57,569 nucleotides of DNA. It comes from a virus. Made by a program: the position numbers and the translations under genes. Shown here one piece after another: positions 4,065 through 57,569 of this stretch. The first letter of the stretch is position 1, and every line of letters begins with the position of its first letter. The stretch lies in IMG/VR virus record IMGVR_UViG_3300029787_000051, positions 1 through 57,569 of that record; one strand, written 5' to 3'. The notes beneath the pieces are model-generated. The model searched no databases. It was not told where the DNA came from and worked only from the letters and a program-made list of their open reading frames with translations.

Positions 4065-4957
4065 GGGCAGTTGCTGAACTTGTAGATGATTATCTTTTAT
4101 CCAGCAACTTCAACGCTTTACGTGACAGAACCAAGCAAGATTATCGCAGGTTTATTAGGCAAGCAATCTGCACAGAGGTAGAGGGCGTACTGCTACGGCA
4201 GCGTCCTCTTACCATGAGTGGCTGCAATGCCAAACGTCACTACGAAATGTGGCTAGATAGAGGTGTGCCTACAGCGAACCATATCTCATCTGTTATCAGG
4301 CTCATCTTCAACTATGGTATTGAGATGGGGTACTGCGATAGCAATCCATTCAAAGCCTTCAAGCGACAGGCTACACATACACGTACTGTAATGTGGGAAC
4401 CCGAAGATGTACGTAAGTTCCTTGATGCAGCGTACTCAAAGTTTCACTGGCGTAATGTAGGTATCATTGCCCATACTGCGTACGATTTGTGTCAACGTGT
4501 GGGTGACATGCGTATGCTTGAGTGGAGTTGGTTTGACTTTGATAAACACGTACTGCACTTACAGCAATCAAAGCGTAGGGCAGAGGTACACCTGCCTATC
4601 AACGATGAACTGTGGGACATGTTGCTACAGCAAGAGGTGGACTATGGCTTCCAGAAATACGTAGCACCGAAACCTAAGTCAGATGGTTGGGGGTTCAAGC
4701 CATACTCTGATCAGTATCTGTCAAGGGTAGCGCGTAAGATTATGCAGGAAGCAGAGCTACCAGATACACTACGTATATCCGACTTGCGTAGGACAGGTAC
4801 AGTTGAGATGGTCGAGGCTGGTGTTCCAATGGGACAGATCATGTCTGTTACAGGACACGCTAACCCACAAAGTGTTAAGCCTTACATGAAGGCTACGTAT
4901 ACGGCAGCTAATGCTGCGTTAACAACTAGAAGGTCCAACGTTGGACCAAAGGAGTAG
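4061..4957 (+). CDS. int: Tyrosine recombinase / integrase, 298 aa
   Basis: Catalyses site-specific recombination between attP and attB. The N-terminal 100 residues fit a SAM-like core-binding domain. In the catalytic domain I see R146 (LCQRVGDMRMLEW), K171 (QQSKRRAEVHLP), R243 (SDLRRTG), H266 (TGHANP) and Y275 nine residues later. The position usually held by His before the second Arg is Ser240 (RISDLRR), an allowed but less common variant. It lies in the replication operon with no adjacent intergenic attP. The last codons overlap palindromic box 2. Confidence 0.9.
   Translation: MRAVAELVDDYLLSSNFNALRDRTKQDYRRFIRQAICTEVEGVLLRQRPLTMSGCNAKRHYEMWLDRGVPTANHISSVIRLIFNYGIEMGYCDSNPFKAFKRQATHTRTVMWEPEDVRKFLDAAYSKFHWRNVGIIAHTAYDLCQRVGDMRMLEWSWFDFDKHVLHLQQSKRRAEVHLPINDELWDMLLQQEVDYGFQKYVAPKPKSDGWGFKPYSDQYLSRVARKIMQEAELPDTLRISDLRRTGTVEMVEAGVPMGQIMSVTGHANPQSVKPYMKATYTAANAALTTRRSNVGPKE
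4933..4946. promoter_or_regulatory. Palindromic box 2, inside the integrase 3' end
   Basis: A perfect GTCCAACGTTGGAC that also encodes residues SNVG near the integrase C-terminus. Four bases later comes AAGGAG, the ribosome binding site of the primase at 4959. A box conserved despite lying in coding sequence argues for function. Confidence 0.7.
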
Positions 4958-54302: not shown

Positions 54303-54316
54303 GTCCAATGTTGGAC
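54303..54316. promoter_or_regulatory. Palindromic box 3 (GTCCAATGTTGGAC)
   Basis: Same 6-bp arms as the other boxes with centre TG instead of CG. It is flanked by an inverted pair, ATCTTCGAT (54280-54288) and ATCGAAGAT (54324-54332). This is the only copy not close to a ribosome binding site or tRNA. Confidence 0.65.
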
Positions 54317-54479: not shown

Positions 54480-54520
54480 GTAAGTTAATACCTGAGTTCT
54501 TACGAAGGTATATAACTTAC
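54480..54520 (+). promoter_or_regulatory. Conserved-loop hairpin H1
   Basis: Eight bp (GTAAGTTA with TAACTTAC), a bulged A at 54512, five bp (ATACC with GGTAT), and the 14-base loop TGAGTTCTTACGAA. The loop is identical in H2 and H3, while the stems are unrelated. Located just before the first early gene. Confidence 0.75.
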
Positions 54521-54538
54521 TTGAAAGGAATAGATGAA

Positions 54539-54739
54539 ATGGCAACCTTTATCGTAACCAAATCCAATCTCACCGAAGGTGTATTCACCGACATCGAAGA
54601 TGTTGTAGACCACATTGGTTTACCAATAGATCGTGGCGAGTTCACCGCCTTTGGCGATCTTGAGTTCGGCAACGGTTACACCGTTACTGGTCCTACGAAC
54701 CTTCTTTTGGGTTCGGCAATGCGAGTCGATTATTCCTAA
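54539..54739 (+). CDS. First early gene, hypothetical, 66 aa
   Basis: MATFIVTKSNLTEGVFTDIE, then HIGLPIDRGEFTAFGDLEFG. Small, beta-rich, acidic. GAAAGGAA lies upstream of the ATG at 54539; a TTG at 54521 is rejected. It is bracketed by conserved-loop hairpins H1 and H2, so it would be a separately processed early message. Function unknown, perhaps a host-takeover protein. Confidence 0.7.
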   Translation: MATFIVTKSNLTEGVFTDIEDVVDHIGLPIDRGEFTAFGDLEFGNGYTVTGPTNLLLGSAMRVDYS

Positions 54740-54746
54740 CATGGTT

Positions 54747-54786
54747 GTGAGTAACACCTTGAGTTCTTACGAAAGGTGTTCCTCAC
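54747..54786 (+). promoter_or_regulatory. Conserved-loop hairpin H2
   Basis: Five bp (GTGAG with CTCAC), one T-C mismatch, seven bp (AACACCT with AGGTGTT) and the same 14-base loop TGAGTTCTTACGAA (54760-54773). It is followed 22 bases later by palindromic box 4. Confidence 0.75.
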
Positions 54787-54807
54787 TAACCAACACCATT
54801 CAAACTG

Positions 54808-54821
54808 GTCCAACATTGGAC
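54808..54821. promoter_or_regulatory. Palindromic box 4 (GTCCAACATTGGAC)
   Basis: Arms are intact, centre CA. Preceded by AAACTG as in boxes 1 and 5 (AAACTR), and followed by the RBS hairpin of the gene at 54846. Confidence 0.7.
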
Positions 54822-54827
54822 GTAACA

Positions 54828-54842
54828 CAAATCGGAGATTTG
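54828..54842 (+). promoter_or_regulatory. RBS hairpin with GGA triloop
   Basis: CAAATC and GATTTG pair over six bp around loop GGA; CGGAG is the Shine-Dalgarno. It lies three bases before the ATG at 54846. Confidence 0.6.
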
Positions 54843-54845
54843 AAA

Positions 54846-55511
54846 ATGGCTAAGACAACCAACGAACAGAACGAAGTTCTCAACACTCTTGAAGCACAAG
54901 GTGCCGAAATTGCAAAGCAATTCAAGAAAATGGATAGCAGAGATCGTCGTAACGTTACGAAGGATATGCCCCAATACTTGGAGCTTGGCAAACTGTTATC
55001 ACAGTTACGGGGCGAATCGGATGCTGGTCGGATAGCATCTAGCCGTCTGAAGGATTGTGGTATCCACAATATTGACAAGCGGCGTAGGAGCGAAGCTCTA
55101 TGGTTTGCTGATAATGAGAAGTCAGTTAATGACTTCAAGGATAAATCTCGTAAGGGATTCACCAGCATCACTGCTTTGCAGAAAGCATGGAAGGATGCCC
55201 AAGCTGCTGAGTCGGAGACTCAAGAGCCTGAGACTGAGGAAGTCACCGAAGGTGCTAACGAAGGTCTTGCTGAACCTACTGGTTCTGATGCAAACGCTAC
55301 ACCAGTACAGGTAGCGGAATCAGTTATTGCACTCTGCAATAAACATGGCATCGACCTCTCTGAAGTAACAGAGTTACTAATGGAACATGTCTCTGTCATC
55401 GAAGATGAATGCCCATTTGATCCACCATTCTCAATAGAGAATGTTGAGATCACTGGTCCGAAAGATGCGAAAGCATTCGCTAACATGTTCGCCAACAATG
55501 GTCCAATGTAA
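54846..55511 (+). CDS. Early protein of unknown function, 221 aa
   Basis: The N-terminal 115 residues are helical and basic (AEIAKQFKKMDSRDRRNVTK; RLKDCGIHNIDKRRRSEALW). A Glu/Thr/Ala-rich acidic linker follows (ESETQEPETEEVTEGANEGL), then a C-terminal domain (SVIALCNKHGIDLSEVTELL). The plan, a possibly DNA-binding front and acidic linker, would suit a regulator or replication initiator, but no family was recognised. Start 54846 is chosen over in-frame upstream codons because of the RBS hairpin. A hairpin spans its stop. Confidence 0.75.
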   Translation: MAKTTNEQNEVLNTLEAQGAEIAKQFKKMDSRDRRNVTKDMPQYLELGKLLSQLRGESDAGRIASSRLKDCGIHNIDKRRRSEALWFADNEKSVNDFKDKSRKGFTSITALQKAWKDAQAAESETQEPETEEVTEGANEGLAEPTGSDANATPVQVAESVIALCNKHGIDLSEVTELLMEHVSVIEDECPFDPPFSIENVEITGPKDAKAFANMFANNGPM

Positions 55512-55524
55512 AGATGTACATTGG
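55503..55524 (+). promoter_or_regulatory. Hairpin across the stop codon and next start
   Basis: CCAATGTA and TACATTGG pair over 8 bp with loop AAGATG. The upstream TAA is in the stem and the next ATG (55514) is in the loop. Its outer arms, GGTCCAA and TTGG, resemble a split form of the palindromic box. Confidence 0.55.
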
Positions 55525-55636
55525 TCGTAACTGGTCACAGCGCAAGGCATGGTTCATGCTTTGCGTTGTCGAACCCCTTGCATTTTCTAGCCTGATGGCT
55601 AGTATTGTTGTGTTCTTTTCTATAATCGGAGATTAA
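55514..55636 (+). CDS. Possible small membrane protein, 40 aa
   Basis: MYIGRNWSQRKAWFMLCVVE then a hydrophobic helix (PLAFSSLMASIVVFFSIIG). The start is in a hairpin loop and has no clear Shine-Dalgarno, so it would rely on coupling to the upstream gene. It fills the gap to the next gene; its stop is within the next RBS hairpin. Confidence 0.45.
   Translation: MYIGRNWSQRKAWFMLCVVEPLAFSSLMASIVVFFSIIGD
55623..55635 (+). promoter_or_regulatory. RBS hairpin with GGA triloop
   Basis: TAATC and GATTA pair around loop GGA, giving CGGAG as the Shine-Dalgarno three bases before the ATG at 55639. Confidence 0.55.
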
Positions 55637-55638
55637 AA

Positions 55639-55863
55639 ATGACCTTGCTTGCTAGAGATATCCCTCGATCATTCACCTTGCGTGGCATAACAGGTCATGG
55701 CAAGAACCGCATAAGAGAACATGGTTCTGTATGGGTTGAGCAACCTTTAAGCATGTCATGGGACAATGGCATATTAGTTACAAGTGTAGAAACACTTGAT
55801 TCACGTTGGATCAAAGAGATAGACGATCCCAATTTCGAGATCGTTAGTGTAAGTGATAGCTGA
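55639..55863 (+). CDS. Hypothetical early protein, 74 aa
   Basis: MTLLARDIPRSFTLRGITGH, a small basic-then-acidic beta-rich protein ending NFEIVSVSDS. Its TGA (55861-55863) is the first three bases of the conserved loop of hairpin H3, so the hairpin can form only after ribosomes leave. Function unknown. Confidence 0.65.
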   Translation: MTLLARDIPRSFTLRGITGHGKNRIREHGSVWVEQPLSMSWDNGILVTSVETLDSRWIKEIDDPNFEIVSVSDS

Positions 55864-55889
55864 GTTCTTACGAAGCTATCACGTTACAC
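55847..55889 (+). promoter_or_regulatory. Conserved-loop hairpin H3
   Basis: Six bp (GTGTAA with TTACAC), a bulged G at 55883, eight bp (GTGATAGC with GCTATCAC) and the loop TGAGTTCTTACGAA. It shares the bulged G and following GTAAACT with the hairpin at 988-1031. Confidence 0.75.
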
Positions 55890-55897
55890 GTAAACTG

Positions 55898-55911
55898 GTC
55901 CAACGTTGGAC
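55898..55911. promoter_or_regulatory. Palindromic box 5 (GTCCAACGTTGGAC)
   Basis: Perfect 14-bp palindrome preceded by AAACTG and followed by TAACA. It lies nine bases before the 5' end of the tRNA-like element. Confidence 0.72.
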
Positions 55912-55920
55912 TAACATTTT

Positions 55921-56009
55921 GGAAGGCACGGCTGGTGTATGTAATGTCCCTAGAACATTGCAGGTCTACTAGGGTAGGCTAACGCAGGGTTCAATTCCCT
56001 GCCCTTCCA
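55921..56009 (+). tRNA. tRNA-like element, class II, anticodon CUA (amber)
   Basis: Acceptor GGAAGGC pairs with CCCTTCC in six of seven positions. The anticodon arm is AATGT-CCCTAGA-ACATT, putting CTA at 34-36. A long variable arm (GTCTAC-TAGG-GTAGGC, six bp) and a perfect T arm (CAGGG-TTCAATT-CCCTG) follow, with discriminator A then CC. The long variable arm points to Ser, Leu or Tyr identity. Oddities: position 33 is C, not U, and no good D arm can be drawn. It may be a real amber-decoding tRNA, an eroded one, or an attP derived from a host tRNA. Confidence 0.5.
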
Positions 56010-56021
56010 CCTTAATACATT

Positions 56022-56034
56022 TTAACGGAGTTAA
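56022..56034 (+). promoter_or_regulatory. RBS hairpin with GGA triloop
   Basis: TTAAC and GTTAA pair around loop GGA, CGGAG being the Shine-Dalgarno. The same 13 bases recur at 56545-56557. Confidence 0.55.
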
Positions 56035-56038
56035 TTAA

Positions 56039-56203
56039 ATGAAACGTTCAGTTCGCAAGGCAAGCAAACGCCGCAATGTCATGGCACATGCTTTGGAAAA
56101 CCGTGCGTTTCAACAACGTGTTGTCCAGCCTGACAAGGGCAAGGGCGCATTCAACAGGCAGAAGGAAAAGGCCAGTGTCAAAAAAGAAATCGACAACGTT
56201 TAA
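56039..56203 (+). CDS. arfA-like: ArfA-like alternative ribosome-rescue factor, 54 aa
   Basis: ArfA recruits RF2 to ribosomes stalled at the 3' end of an mRNA. The phage protein keeps the family core with the same spacing: N13-x7-to-F22, QRV (24-26), KGKG (31-34), A/S-F/Y and R (38), e.g. ENRAFQQRVV then DKGKGAFNR. E. coli ArfA is 72 aa with a hydrophobic degron and is active only when truncated at about 55; this one stops at 54 and has no degron. GGAG precedes it inside an RBS hairpin. It lies 27 bases after the tRNA-like element. Confidence 0.7.
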   Translation: MKRSVRKASKRRNVMAHALENRAFQQRVVQPDKGKGAFNRQKEKASVKKEIDNV

Positions 56204-56324
56204 CGTTAATCAGAAACGTCTTGACCGTAGTGATTACCGTATGCTACGAAAGGCACGTGATATGCAGCGCAAGAAATTGCGTAAAGCAAAACAGAAAATT
56301 CAATCGTTAACAATCGGAGCGTGA
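56175..56324 (+). CDS. Hypothetical basic peptide, 49 aa, GTG start
   Basis: Frame open from 56076, but a GTG at 56175 with AAGGAAAAGG upstream is the likely start (VSKKKSTTFNVNQKRLDRSD, then RKARDMQRKKLRKAKQK). About 40% basic, helical. It overlaps the ArfA-like gene by 29 bases. Possibly an RNA- or ribosome-binding partner; function unknown. Confidence 0.5.
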   Translation: MSKKKSTTFNVNQKRLDRSDYRMLRKARDMQRKKLRKAKQKIQSLTIGA

Positions 56325-56325
56325 C

Positions 56326-56523
56326 ATGCAAGCTACCTATAAAAATCCTGCCATCGAATCACTGCTGACCAGTATCACTGGTCGTGATCGTGTCGCTACT
56401 GTTGCAAGCAACACTTGCGTAACATGTGACGGTGCTGCTGATACCTTCAAAGATGAGGGATCAAAGCGTGAGTATGCTATCTCTGGCATGTGCCAATCCT
56501 GTCAGGATAGCGTGTTTGGATAG
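56326..56523 (+). CDS. Zinc-ribbon-like protein, 65 aa
   Basis: Two CxxC pairs (NTCVTCDGAADTF and GMCQSCQDSVFG) bracket KDEGSKREYAISG. This C-x2-C…REYxISGMCQxCQDxVFG pattern is a small conserved family in marine phages, function unknown. Its stop TAG is immediately followed by palindromic box 6. Confidence 0.72.
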   Translation: MQATYKNPAIESLLTSITGRDRVATVASNTCVTCDGAADTFKDEGSKREYAISGMCQSCQDSVFG

Positions 56524-56537
56524 GTCCAACGTTGGAC
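56524..56537. promoter_or_regulatory. Palindromic box 6 (GTCCAACGTTGGAC)
   Basis: Perfect palindrome directly after the stop codon of the zinc-ribbon gene, followed by TAACA as in box 5 and then the RBS hairpin of the gene at 56562. Confidence 0.72.
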
Positions 56538-56544
56538 TAACACT

Positions 56545-56557
56545 TTAACGGAGTTAA
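56545..56557 (+). promoter_or_regulatory. RBS hairpin with GGA triloop
   Basis: TTAAC-GGA-GTTAA, identical to 56022-56034 although the genes served are unrelated, so this leader was copied or is strongly selected. Confidence 0.55.
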
Positions 56558-56561
56558 TCTT

Positions 56562-56837
56562 ATGGCTACTGAAATGAATAACGTAGTTGTTACCCATAGA
56601 GGGTGGACTATTAGTATCACTGACCACATTGGCTTTGGTATACATGGTCCTGATTGCAAGACACGTGAGATCGGTATCTGGAATACTGCTGATAGCCATT
56701 CCGAAATTGATGTTGTCGTATATCATTACGGTGATAGTGCGAAGCAATTGGTACATGCAATTCGCTACGCTCAATGGCAAATCGACAAGACTCTTTTCAA
56801 GAGTTGGATCAAATCAACATTCAAGTTTGGAGCCTGA
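56562..56837 (+). CDS. Hypothetical early protein, 91 aa
   Basis: MATEMNNVVVTHRGWTISIT, then REIGIWNTADSHSEIDVVVY and a C-terminal amphipathic helix (AKQLVHAIRYAQWQIDKTLF). Alternating strands followed by a helix. Strong RBS in a hairpin loop after box 6. Function unknown. Confidence 0.68.
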   Translation: MATEMNNVVVTHRGWTISITDHIGFGIHGPDCKTREIGIWNTADSHSEIDVVVYHYGDSAKQLVHAIRYAQWQIDKTLFKSWIKSTFKFGA

Positions 56838-56840
56838 CCT

Positions 56841-57470
56841 ATGCCTAAATCCCCAGTACATATCAGCAAGATGACAGGCAAGCTGGATAGCTTGCGGTCT
56901 ATCAGTACCAACACCGTGACCAACAAGTTTTGCAATGACATGCACAACGCAAAGGCTGAGACTATATGCAAAGTGTGCTACTCTCACGCTATGCTCAATG
57001 GCTTTCGTAAGAATTGCCAAGCATCATTGCAACGCAATAGCGATTTGCTTTCCAAGCAAGTGCTATCGGTTGATGAGTTACCCGTTATCAAAGATAAGGT
57101 GTTCCGTTTCAATGCTCACGGTGAGCTACTCAACATGCGGCACCTACTTAATCTCATTGCCATCGTGCGGCACAATCCTGACACGCTGTTCACGTTGTGG
57201 ACTAAGCGCAAGGATTTGATTAACCGCCTGTTCAAGTATGAGCTATCGGAGAAACCCGATAACATGATACTGATCTTCTCTAACCCGAAGGTTAGTAACA
57301 TCATCCCCGAACATAAAATGCCAAAGCATTTTGACAAGACGTTCAACAACGTGCTTGAGCATGAGGCTGTGCCGTATCAGAACTGCACGGGACAACAATG
57401 CAAGGATTGCCTGTTGTGCTACACTCACGGGACCACTCCAACTATCGTTGAAAAGGTAAAGGCATATTGA
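56841..57470 (+). CDS. GP88-like cysteine-rich protein, 209 aa
   Basis: Resembles the phage GP88 family, function unknown. It has nine Cys: C31, C43 and C46 (FCNDMHNAKAETICKVCYSH), C59, and a C-terminal cluster (NCTGQQCKDCLLCYTHG). The core has RFNAHGELLNMRHLLNLIAI and TLWTKRKDLINRLF. The Cys pattern suggests an Fe-S or zinc site. TGA then two bases then the ATG of the 76-aa gene at the contig join. Confidence 0.65.
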   Translation: MPKSPVHISKMTGKLDSLRSISTNTVTNKFCNDMHNAKAETICKVCYSHAMLNGFRKNCQASLQRNSDLLSKQVLSVDELPVIKDKVFRFNAHGELLNMRHLLNLIAIVRHNPDTLFTLWTKRKDLINRLFKYELSEKPDNMILIFSNPKVSNIIPEHKMPKHFDKTFNNVLEHEAVPYQNCTGQQCKDCLLCYTHGTTPTIVEKVKAY

Positions 57471-57569
57471 TATGAAAAGAATTGTCCATGTTAATCAACA
57501 TGTTATCAAAGCTAACCGTAGGTATTACGAGGAAAAGCCCCCGCTTACTTGTAAGACCTACAAGGATAC
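57438..57569. repeat. Contig-end overlap, right copy
   Basis: Second copy of bases 1-132, 127 of 132 identical. See the left copy. The differences are C, T, G, A and C at 57516, 57525, 57531, 57534 and 57540, all silent. Confidence 0.93.
57472..57569 (+). CDS. 5' part of the 76-aa hypothetical protein (cut by the contig end)
   Basis: Same protein sequence as the gene at 35-265 over its first 32 codons, with five silent differences. It is the same gene read again in the overlap. Confidence 0.85.
   Translation, partial: MKRIVHVNQHVIKANRRYYEEKPPLTCKTYKD

Follow-up and report, generated by a model that had tools for sequence, protein, structure and literature searches.

The early region of an HMO-2011-type phage

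In the present study, we analyzed the stem-loops (leader hairpins) that precede early genes in the IMG/VR virus record IMGVR_UViG_3300029787_000051, of which positions 1 to 57,569 form the stretch of DNA examined here (57,569 nucleotides; hereafter the window). The window is a circular marine phage record of the HMO-2011 type. Its last 133 bases (57437-57569) repeat positions 1-133 with a few differences, as in a circular or circularly permuted record that was assembled from variants. Its DNA polymerase has 63% identity to that of Puniceispirillum phage HMO-2011 and 52-60% identity to those of the roseophages CRP-345, CRP-1, CRP-603, CRP-2, and CRP-207. The early genes are on the + strand, from approximately 54480 through the ends of the record to approximately 16800, and the late genes are on the - strand. 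All of the elements reported below (hairpins, boxes, and small hairpins that carry a Shine-Dalgarno (SD) sequence) lie at the start of the early unit, and the early region contains four stem-loops (54480, 54747, 55847, and 988), six palindromic boxes, and several SD hairpins, often in the order hairpin, box, SD, gene. An initial annotation, made from the sequence alone, had given positions for the three kinds of element, and we found every one of them in place. The four leader hairpins are as follows:

54480-54520, + strand: leader hairpin 1; loop GAGTTCTTACGA at 54494-54505; internal bulge in the stem; gene start at 54539; score 36.5 bits
54747-54786, + strand: leader hairpin 2; loop GAGTTCTTACGA at 54761-54772; score 40.5 bits
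55847-55889, + strand: leader hairpin 3; loop GAGTTCTTACGA at 55862-55873; score 38.1 bits
988-1031, + strand: leader hairpin 4; loop AAATGAAATGA at 1004-1014; shares the structural frame of the others

The loop GAGTTCTTACGA has exactly three exact occurrences in the window, all on the + strand (54494, 54761, and 55862). In hairpin 3, the gene upstream ends with the TGA found at the edge of the loop.

A widespread family of hairpins with covarying stems

At least 119 viral stretches contain the 14-base loop. Among the matches listed from viral contigs, 47 of 134 loop occurrences have flanks with at least six of seven complementary pairs, and the distribution is bimodal; judged by this flank complementarity, the leader hairpin is far beyond chance. 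The stem is approximately 17-20 bp long (median, 17 ungapped pairs) and almost perfectly Watson-Crick, its sequence is free, and stem sequences differ completely from phage to phage. In 30 aligned copies, 90.3% of the stem cells are paired, compared with 52.0% after shuffling and 31-47% after sliding; the covariation score of the stem is 0.92 (0.19 for shuffled copies), and double changes occur in nine of the ten pairs. Scanning of whole records gave matches in 31 of 33, with one to six copies per record, and in all 16 loci with several copies, these are on one strand. The hairpin is a widespread family across many phage types, present in at least 31 viral contigs, although the contigs are related to one another and such counts are not numbers of independent events. 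Many of the phages that carry it have been seen in environmental sequence alone. With this recurrence and the massive covariation of the stem, the proposal in the initial annotation of a repeated leader cassette survives.

The search model (R1) gave no match in HMO-2011 or the CRP records. It was trained on one loop type, and this result is a blind spot, because a de novo scan for inverted repeats found hairpins of this kind, with a different interior of the loop, in HMO-2011, CRP-1, CRP-345, contig L121, and others. Bacterial and archaeal genomes (84,980 species) gave seven matches to one 18-mer version of the loop, approximately as expected by chance and none with a proper stem. Since these were chance matches only, the element looks phage-specific, as far as this single loop version goes. 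Rfam gave no gathering match over the hairpins of the window, and for 20 hairpin loci the Rfam 15 matches were confined to one tRNA off the hairpin and to weak microRNA matches that covered the stem alone and were far short of their thresholds. In contig L140, a clear tRNA (1961-2034, - strand; Rfam, 71.7 bits) lies on the strand opposite to the hairpin, at a distance of approximately 450 bases. In a search for cultured relatives, a phage collection contained no DNA match for four other hairpin phages (L029, L059, L222, and L208) and only short DNA matches for L119. Furthermore, BLAST clusters of 1,253 open reading frames from 22 records, several of them incomplete, contained no protein common to all hairpin phages.

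A folded loop frame

One group of hairpin copies, type A, was found through its loop sequence. We also fetched 150 loci through homology to two window genes, blind to hairpins, which avoids selection by loop sequence. Among the 266 long inverted repeats in these loci, the most frequent loop frame is U-GA...GA-A, and of the 12 hairpins that have it (AA...GA included), 11 are on the sense strand; with 12 hairpins, this loop-independent sample is modest. The frame consists of the stem, a U-A pair, a G.A or A.A mismatch, an A.G mismatch, two covarying pairs, and an apical loop of 3-6 nucleotides (nt); in some loops, the 5' GA is followed by one bulged base. Of 37 distinct loops, 30 have a Watson-Crick pair 4 (A-U 17, G-C 12, and C-G 1; U.U in 5 others), whereas the shuffled mean is 15.3 and none of 20,000 shuffles reached 30. 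For pair 5 the number is 24 of 37, compared with 15.7 after shuffling (p 0.0005; U-A 17, C-G 6, U.G 5, and A-U 1), and pair 6 shows no covariation as a base pair in these loops. The first mismatch varies only from G to A, a substitution that, judging from known RNA structure, would be expected to be tolerated in a sheared pair. Both this change and the alternation between C-G and U.G at pair 5 are RNA-like.

An inner helix in the loop (GTTC-TTAC-GAAC) was also considered. Many type-A copies agree with this helix, but those of the window do not, nor do other loops, and the tandem-G.A frame replaced it because this frame explains nearly all of the 37 loops. The signature of a kink turn, a 3-nt bulge between the stem and the G.A pairs, is found in none of them. 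In terms of the frame, the loop AAATGAAATGA of hairpin 4 reads as A.A, A.G, A-U, U-A, and the triloop GAA; the hairpin at 988 fits, and therefore all four hairpins of the window are one family. The hairpins at position 87 of contig L318 and position 283 of contig L320 share the inner stem and differ in their loops (GAACTTTAGTGA and AAACGTTAGTGA); in this clade, the loop changes faster than the stem.

Position of the hairpins and search for terminators and promoters

The hairpins lie on the sense strand, after one gene and ahead of the SD that belongs to the following early gene. An SD and a start codon follow the loop within 27-96 nt in 66 of 79 hairpins (median, 44.5 nt from loop to start), compared with 14 of 79 (18%) on the antisense strand and 31% at random positions. 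This nearness to the SD would be in keeping with a hairpin that serves only as a translational operator or 5' mRNA stabilizer, to which a protein or the ribosome binds by the SD, so that translation or decay is tuned and the message is left uncut. Leader hairpins serve as translational operators for T4 gp43 and other phage proteins (PMC3014915). However, the genes served here are unrelated, one unit precedes a tRNA-like element, and the BLAST clusters contained no shared phage protein; we regard such a purely translational role as rather unlikely. An intrinsic terminator was rejected, since TTTT lies within 10 nt of the stem in only 1 of 89 hairpins, that is, there is no U-run.

Another explanation places the element at the DNA level: the inverted repeat, extruded or single-stranded, would be a hairpin promoter or an entry site for RNA polymerase, with transcription starting at or just after the hairpin. 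The stem is strictly Watson-Crick and accepts G-U no better than A-C (3 G-U, 5 A-C, and 29 other mismatches in 464 cells), and the HMO clade has one operator-like box per unit, which would be sensible if the promoter lay within the hairpin. Strong -10 elements are concentrated within the 5' arm of some phages, at -30 to -10 relative to the loop centre and limited to certain families. The 5' arm of a few families is overlapped by TTGACA together with a -10 element, and some HMO-type copies have, by eye, a promoter-like TTGATA in the loop and TATAAC in the 3' arm. However, in a profile made with a sigma-70 position weight matrix, the mean score across the hairpins is no higher than that of shuffled sequences, and U.G is tolerated at pair 5. 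The promoters of the N4 virion RNA polymerase are DNA hairpins with a stem of 5-7 bp and a loop of 3 nt. The hairpins of the present study resemble them in being repeated early hairpins upstream of genes, but their stem and loop sizes are unlike those of N4, and no virion RNA polymerase was recognized here. The phage RNA polymerase family PF00940 was unmatched in 15 records, a weak point since control genomes were likewise unmatched. We consider a DNA-level element improbable. A sigma-70 promoter in which the loop supplies the -35, or whose -10 has a constant offset, can be made out by eye in CRP-1, CRP-345, HMO-2011, and L182 but proved not to be general. Terminator stems, tried as a G-U control to tell RNA from DNA, were too noisy and were dropped.

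Leader units in relatives and their exchange

HMO-2011 has two units, one with a hairpin at 5-43, a box at 61-74, an SD, and ATG at 94, and the other with a hairpin at 1203-1243, a box at 1262-1275, and ATG at 1288 or 1291. The order hairpin, box, SD, gene is kept in CRP-1, L121, and six contigs of the L182 kind, with sequences other than those of the window. In L182, at least five small early genes each have a hairpin, a box, and an SD, and further genes have a box alone; one type of slot holds different loops (AAGTTCTTACGA, GAGTTCTTACGA, and GATACTTTAGTGA). The idea of an exchangeable leader unit before unrelated early genes, put forward in the initial annotation, is borne out by the recurrence in relatives and by the varying loops in the same slot of one phage. 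As for a cassette of three joined parts, the order does recur, but the parts are separable and differ in distribution: type-A hairpins are present in many phages without the window-type box, and the box is limited to one HMO-2011 subclade and is also found without a hairpin.

Because loops and stems are exchanged between slots, and variable small genes lie downstream, the inverted repeats might also be a recombination module without a regulatory role, retained for promoting gene shuffling. This would leave the covarying loop pairs 4 and 5 and the strict sense orientation unexplained, and we think it very improbable.

The initial annotation had also compared the units with the early-promoter/stem-loop (PeSL) units of T4-like phages. 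T4-type PeSL cassettes are described as comprising an early promoter and a terminator (Arbiol 2010; Comeau 2014; cited through PMC4503421 and PMC5931544). Both systems are small intergenic stem-loop regulators before variable early genes, with a link to gene shuffling, and the hairpin units differ from T4 PeSLs in the missing U-run, the lack of a consistent promoter, and the conserved folded loop; moreover, their phages are not T4-like. The likeness to T4 PeSLs is weak.

Comparison with other known systems

The early region of T7 has RNase III processing hairpins, long double-stranded RNA stems between early genes, one per gene unit. The hairpins described here are similar in having a stem of approximately 20 bp between early genes, just upstream of the next SD. 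However, the T7 sites have no conserved loop, and the tandem-G.A loop frame lies outside RNase III recognition.

Lambda nut/boxB has a 5-bp stem and a GNRA-like pentaloop, and one copy is present per operon. The elements of the present study resemble lambda nut/boxB and HK022 put as hairpins that probably belong to the leader of early RNA, carry a folded loop, and lie on the sense strand; unlike boxB, they have a stem of 17-20 bp, tandem G.A, two base pairs, and a loop of 3-6 nt, and up to six copies per record. If the hairpin were an antitermination site comparable to nut or put, its RNA would recruit a factor to RNA polymerase during early infection, leading to read-through of terminators, and this could account for repeated sense-strand leader hairpins, for folded loops with predicted sheared G.A pairs, and for clustering in the early region. 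However, a copy before nearly every gene exceeds the need, the stem is long, different loop types occur within one phage, and no N-like protein was identified, no search having been aimed at one; antitermination is decidedly improbable in our view.

As in the MS2/R17 coat-protein operator, a non-canonical element lies two base pairs below a small loop (a tetraloop in MS2), before a start codon. In MS2/R17, this element is a bulged A, not tandem G.A, and the operator belongs to an RNA phage with unrelated proteins.

A text search of the literature with the loop sequence returned unrelated papers only, and the genome papers on HMO-2011-type phages and roseophages that were searched make no mention of a promoter, hairpin, or terminator. 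The initial annotation knew of no description of the combination. The hairpin is covered by no Rfam family, although leader hairpins and exchangeable cassettes are known in kind (T4 PeSL and T7).

Possible mode of action

The structure of the hairpin is well supported by conservation, covariation, orientation, position, and recurrence, and we infer that it acts in RNA, as a cis-acting leader stem-loop of phage early transcripts. The most likely reading, to which we give an even chance, is an RNA leader element that acts on transcript processing or stability and whose loop is read by a common factor; we rank it ahead of the translational operator, the DNA hairpin promoter, and the antitermination site. 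The U.G at pair 5, the substitution pattern of the sheared pair, and the place beside the SD would speak for RNA. The long stem may be a structure-specific processing or stability signal, RNase III-like as in the T7 early region, and its cleavage would split the polycistronic early message into separately translated pieces. The reader of the folded loop would be a factor that many hosts possess, given that the BLAST clusters contained no phage protein shared by the carriers, and the units would swap between genes and phages as short modules.

Several points weigh against an RNA leader of this kind. G-U is not favoured in the stem, though an RNA helix allows it, so that a DNA hairpin is possible. 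The internal mismatch has no fixed position, unlike that of a tuned RNase III site, and a conserved loop would be superfluous for RNase III. Furthermore, one family and a few others have a strong sigma-70 -10 element within the 5' arm, and transcripts from such a promoter would start near the loop, without the full stem.

A broader proposal is that the hairpins form a new and widely distributed type of structured RNA, which would serve numerous unrelated marine phages as a universal leader of early genes, have a conserved host factor or an RNase as its reader, and spread as an exchangeable module; we advance it tentatively, as falling a little short of an even chance. HMO-2011-type phages are among the dominant marine viruses. 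A covarying leader element that can be recognized in sequence is a handle on the early gene units of uncultured phages; the hairpin also gives factors from host or phage a defined target, and with it the modular exchange of RNA control elements can be put to the test. The cultured carriers HMO-2011 (host, Puniceispirillum marinum IMCC1322), CRP-1, and CRP-345 (hosts, Rhodobacteraceae FZCC0023 / FZCC0042) put experiments within reach.

The palindromic box and the 221-aa early protein

With up to three mismatches allowed, the box GTCCAACGTTGGAC has six sites in the window compared with 1.06 expected, a number reached in none of 100 shuffles. The sites, to which no strand is assigned, are as follows:

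54303-54316: box GTCCAATGTTGGAC, divergent early/late region
54808-54821: box GTCCAACATTGGAC, after hairpin 2
55898-55911: box GTCCAACGTTGGAC, after hairpin 3
56524-56537: box GTCCAACGTTGGAC, without a hairpin, before the gene at 56562
1040-1053: box GTCCAACGTTGGAC, after hairpin 4
4933-4946: box GTCCAACGTTGGAC, before the primase start (ATG 4960)

The initial annotation had missed those at 4933 and 54303. Box centres occur as reverse complements (AATGTT/AACATT and GCTGTC/GACAGC; CTGT/ACAG in HMO-2011), and 4-10 copies in either orientation are associated with the gene of a 221-amino-acid (aa) protein. From its sequence, the box looks like a double-stranded DNA operator in its behaviour. The protein is encoded in the window as follows:

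54846-55511, + strand: 221-aa early protein; present or absent in step with the boxes among relatives; candidate regulator that would bind the box

Two or more boxes were found in 18 of 313 loci examined, all of which carry a homologue of the 221-aa protein or are parts of HMO-2011, in which the syntenic counterpart of the gene is gp74. CRP-2, CRP-603, CRP-207, CRP-3, and HTVC033P have neither the boxes nor the gene. A search for related loci with the 221-aa protein gave no match; its homologues surfaced among loci collected otherwise. In L182, L235, L231, L233, L257, L214, L194, L121, CRP-1, and CRP-345, but not in the window, a box lies inside the 221-aa coding sequence.

A box-binding autoregulator would be the simplest reading of the 221-aa protein. 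In the HMO-2011 subclade, the box could form an independent second layer of control, a double-stranded DNA operator probably bound by this protein, which would damp its own and other early units. Two points speak against it: the link between box and protein may reflect common descent alone, and the predicted structure of the protein is a helical model (mean predicted local distance difference test score, 65) with no confident match to a solved fold. A TetR-type regulator was rejected as its fold, the best Z of 4.3 being below the noise level for helical models. In contig L171 (8419-9024; record G022), six palindromes GTCAA-N4-TTGAC lie around a hairpin, with the 5-4-5 design of the box and another sequence.

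SD hairpins and a possible ribosome-rescue unit

Counted as a GGAG flanked by arms of 4 bp or more ahead of an ATG, SD hairpins number five in the window compared with 1.1 expected, in addition to the site at 1060, and they are concentrated in the early leader region; HMO-2011 likewise has five compared with 1.1 expected. An SD placed in the loop of a small hairpin would be a third, local feature of translation. These hairpins and a neighbouring element are listed below:

54828-54842, + strand: SD hairpin CAAATC-GGAG-ATTTG, before ATG 54846
1060-1075, + strand: SD hairpin GTGAAAGGAGATTCAC, before ATG 1078
56545-56557, + strand: SD hairpin TTAACGGAGTTAA, before ATG 56562
55623-55635, + strand: SD hairpin TAATCGGAGATTA, before ATG 55639; additional to those of the initial annotation
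56022-56034, + strand: SD hairpin TTAACGGAGTTAA, before ATG 56039; likewise additional
55921-56009, + strand: tRNA-like cloverleaf; long variable arm; CUA in the anticodon loop; fold z -3.2

The last of these had been annotated as a tRNA. It has a good cloverleaf fold but no ARAGORN or Rfam call, and the assignment is unproven. Directly after this element, with its CUA (amber-reading) anticodon loop, there is a 54-aa early gene (56039-56203) that matches Pfam ArfA, the alternative ribosome-rescue factor A, above the cut-off (E 4.5e-7). It is possible that the ArfA gene and the tRNA-like element together form a phage ribosome-rescue or suppression unit.

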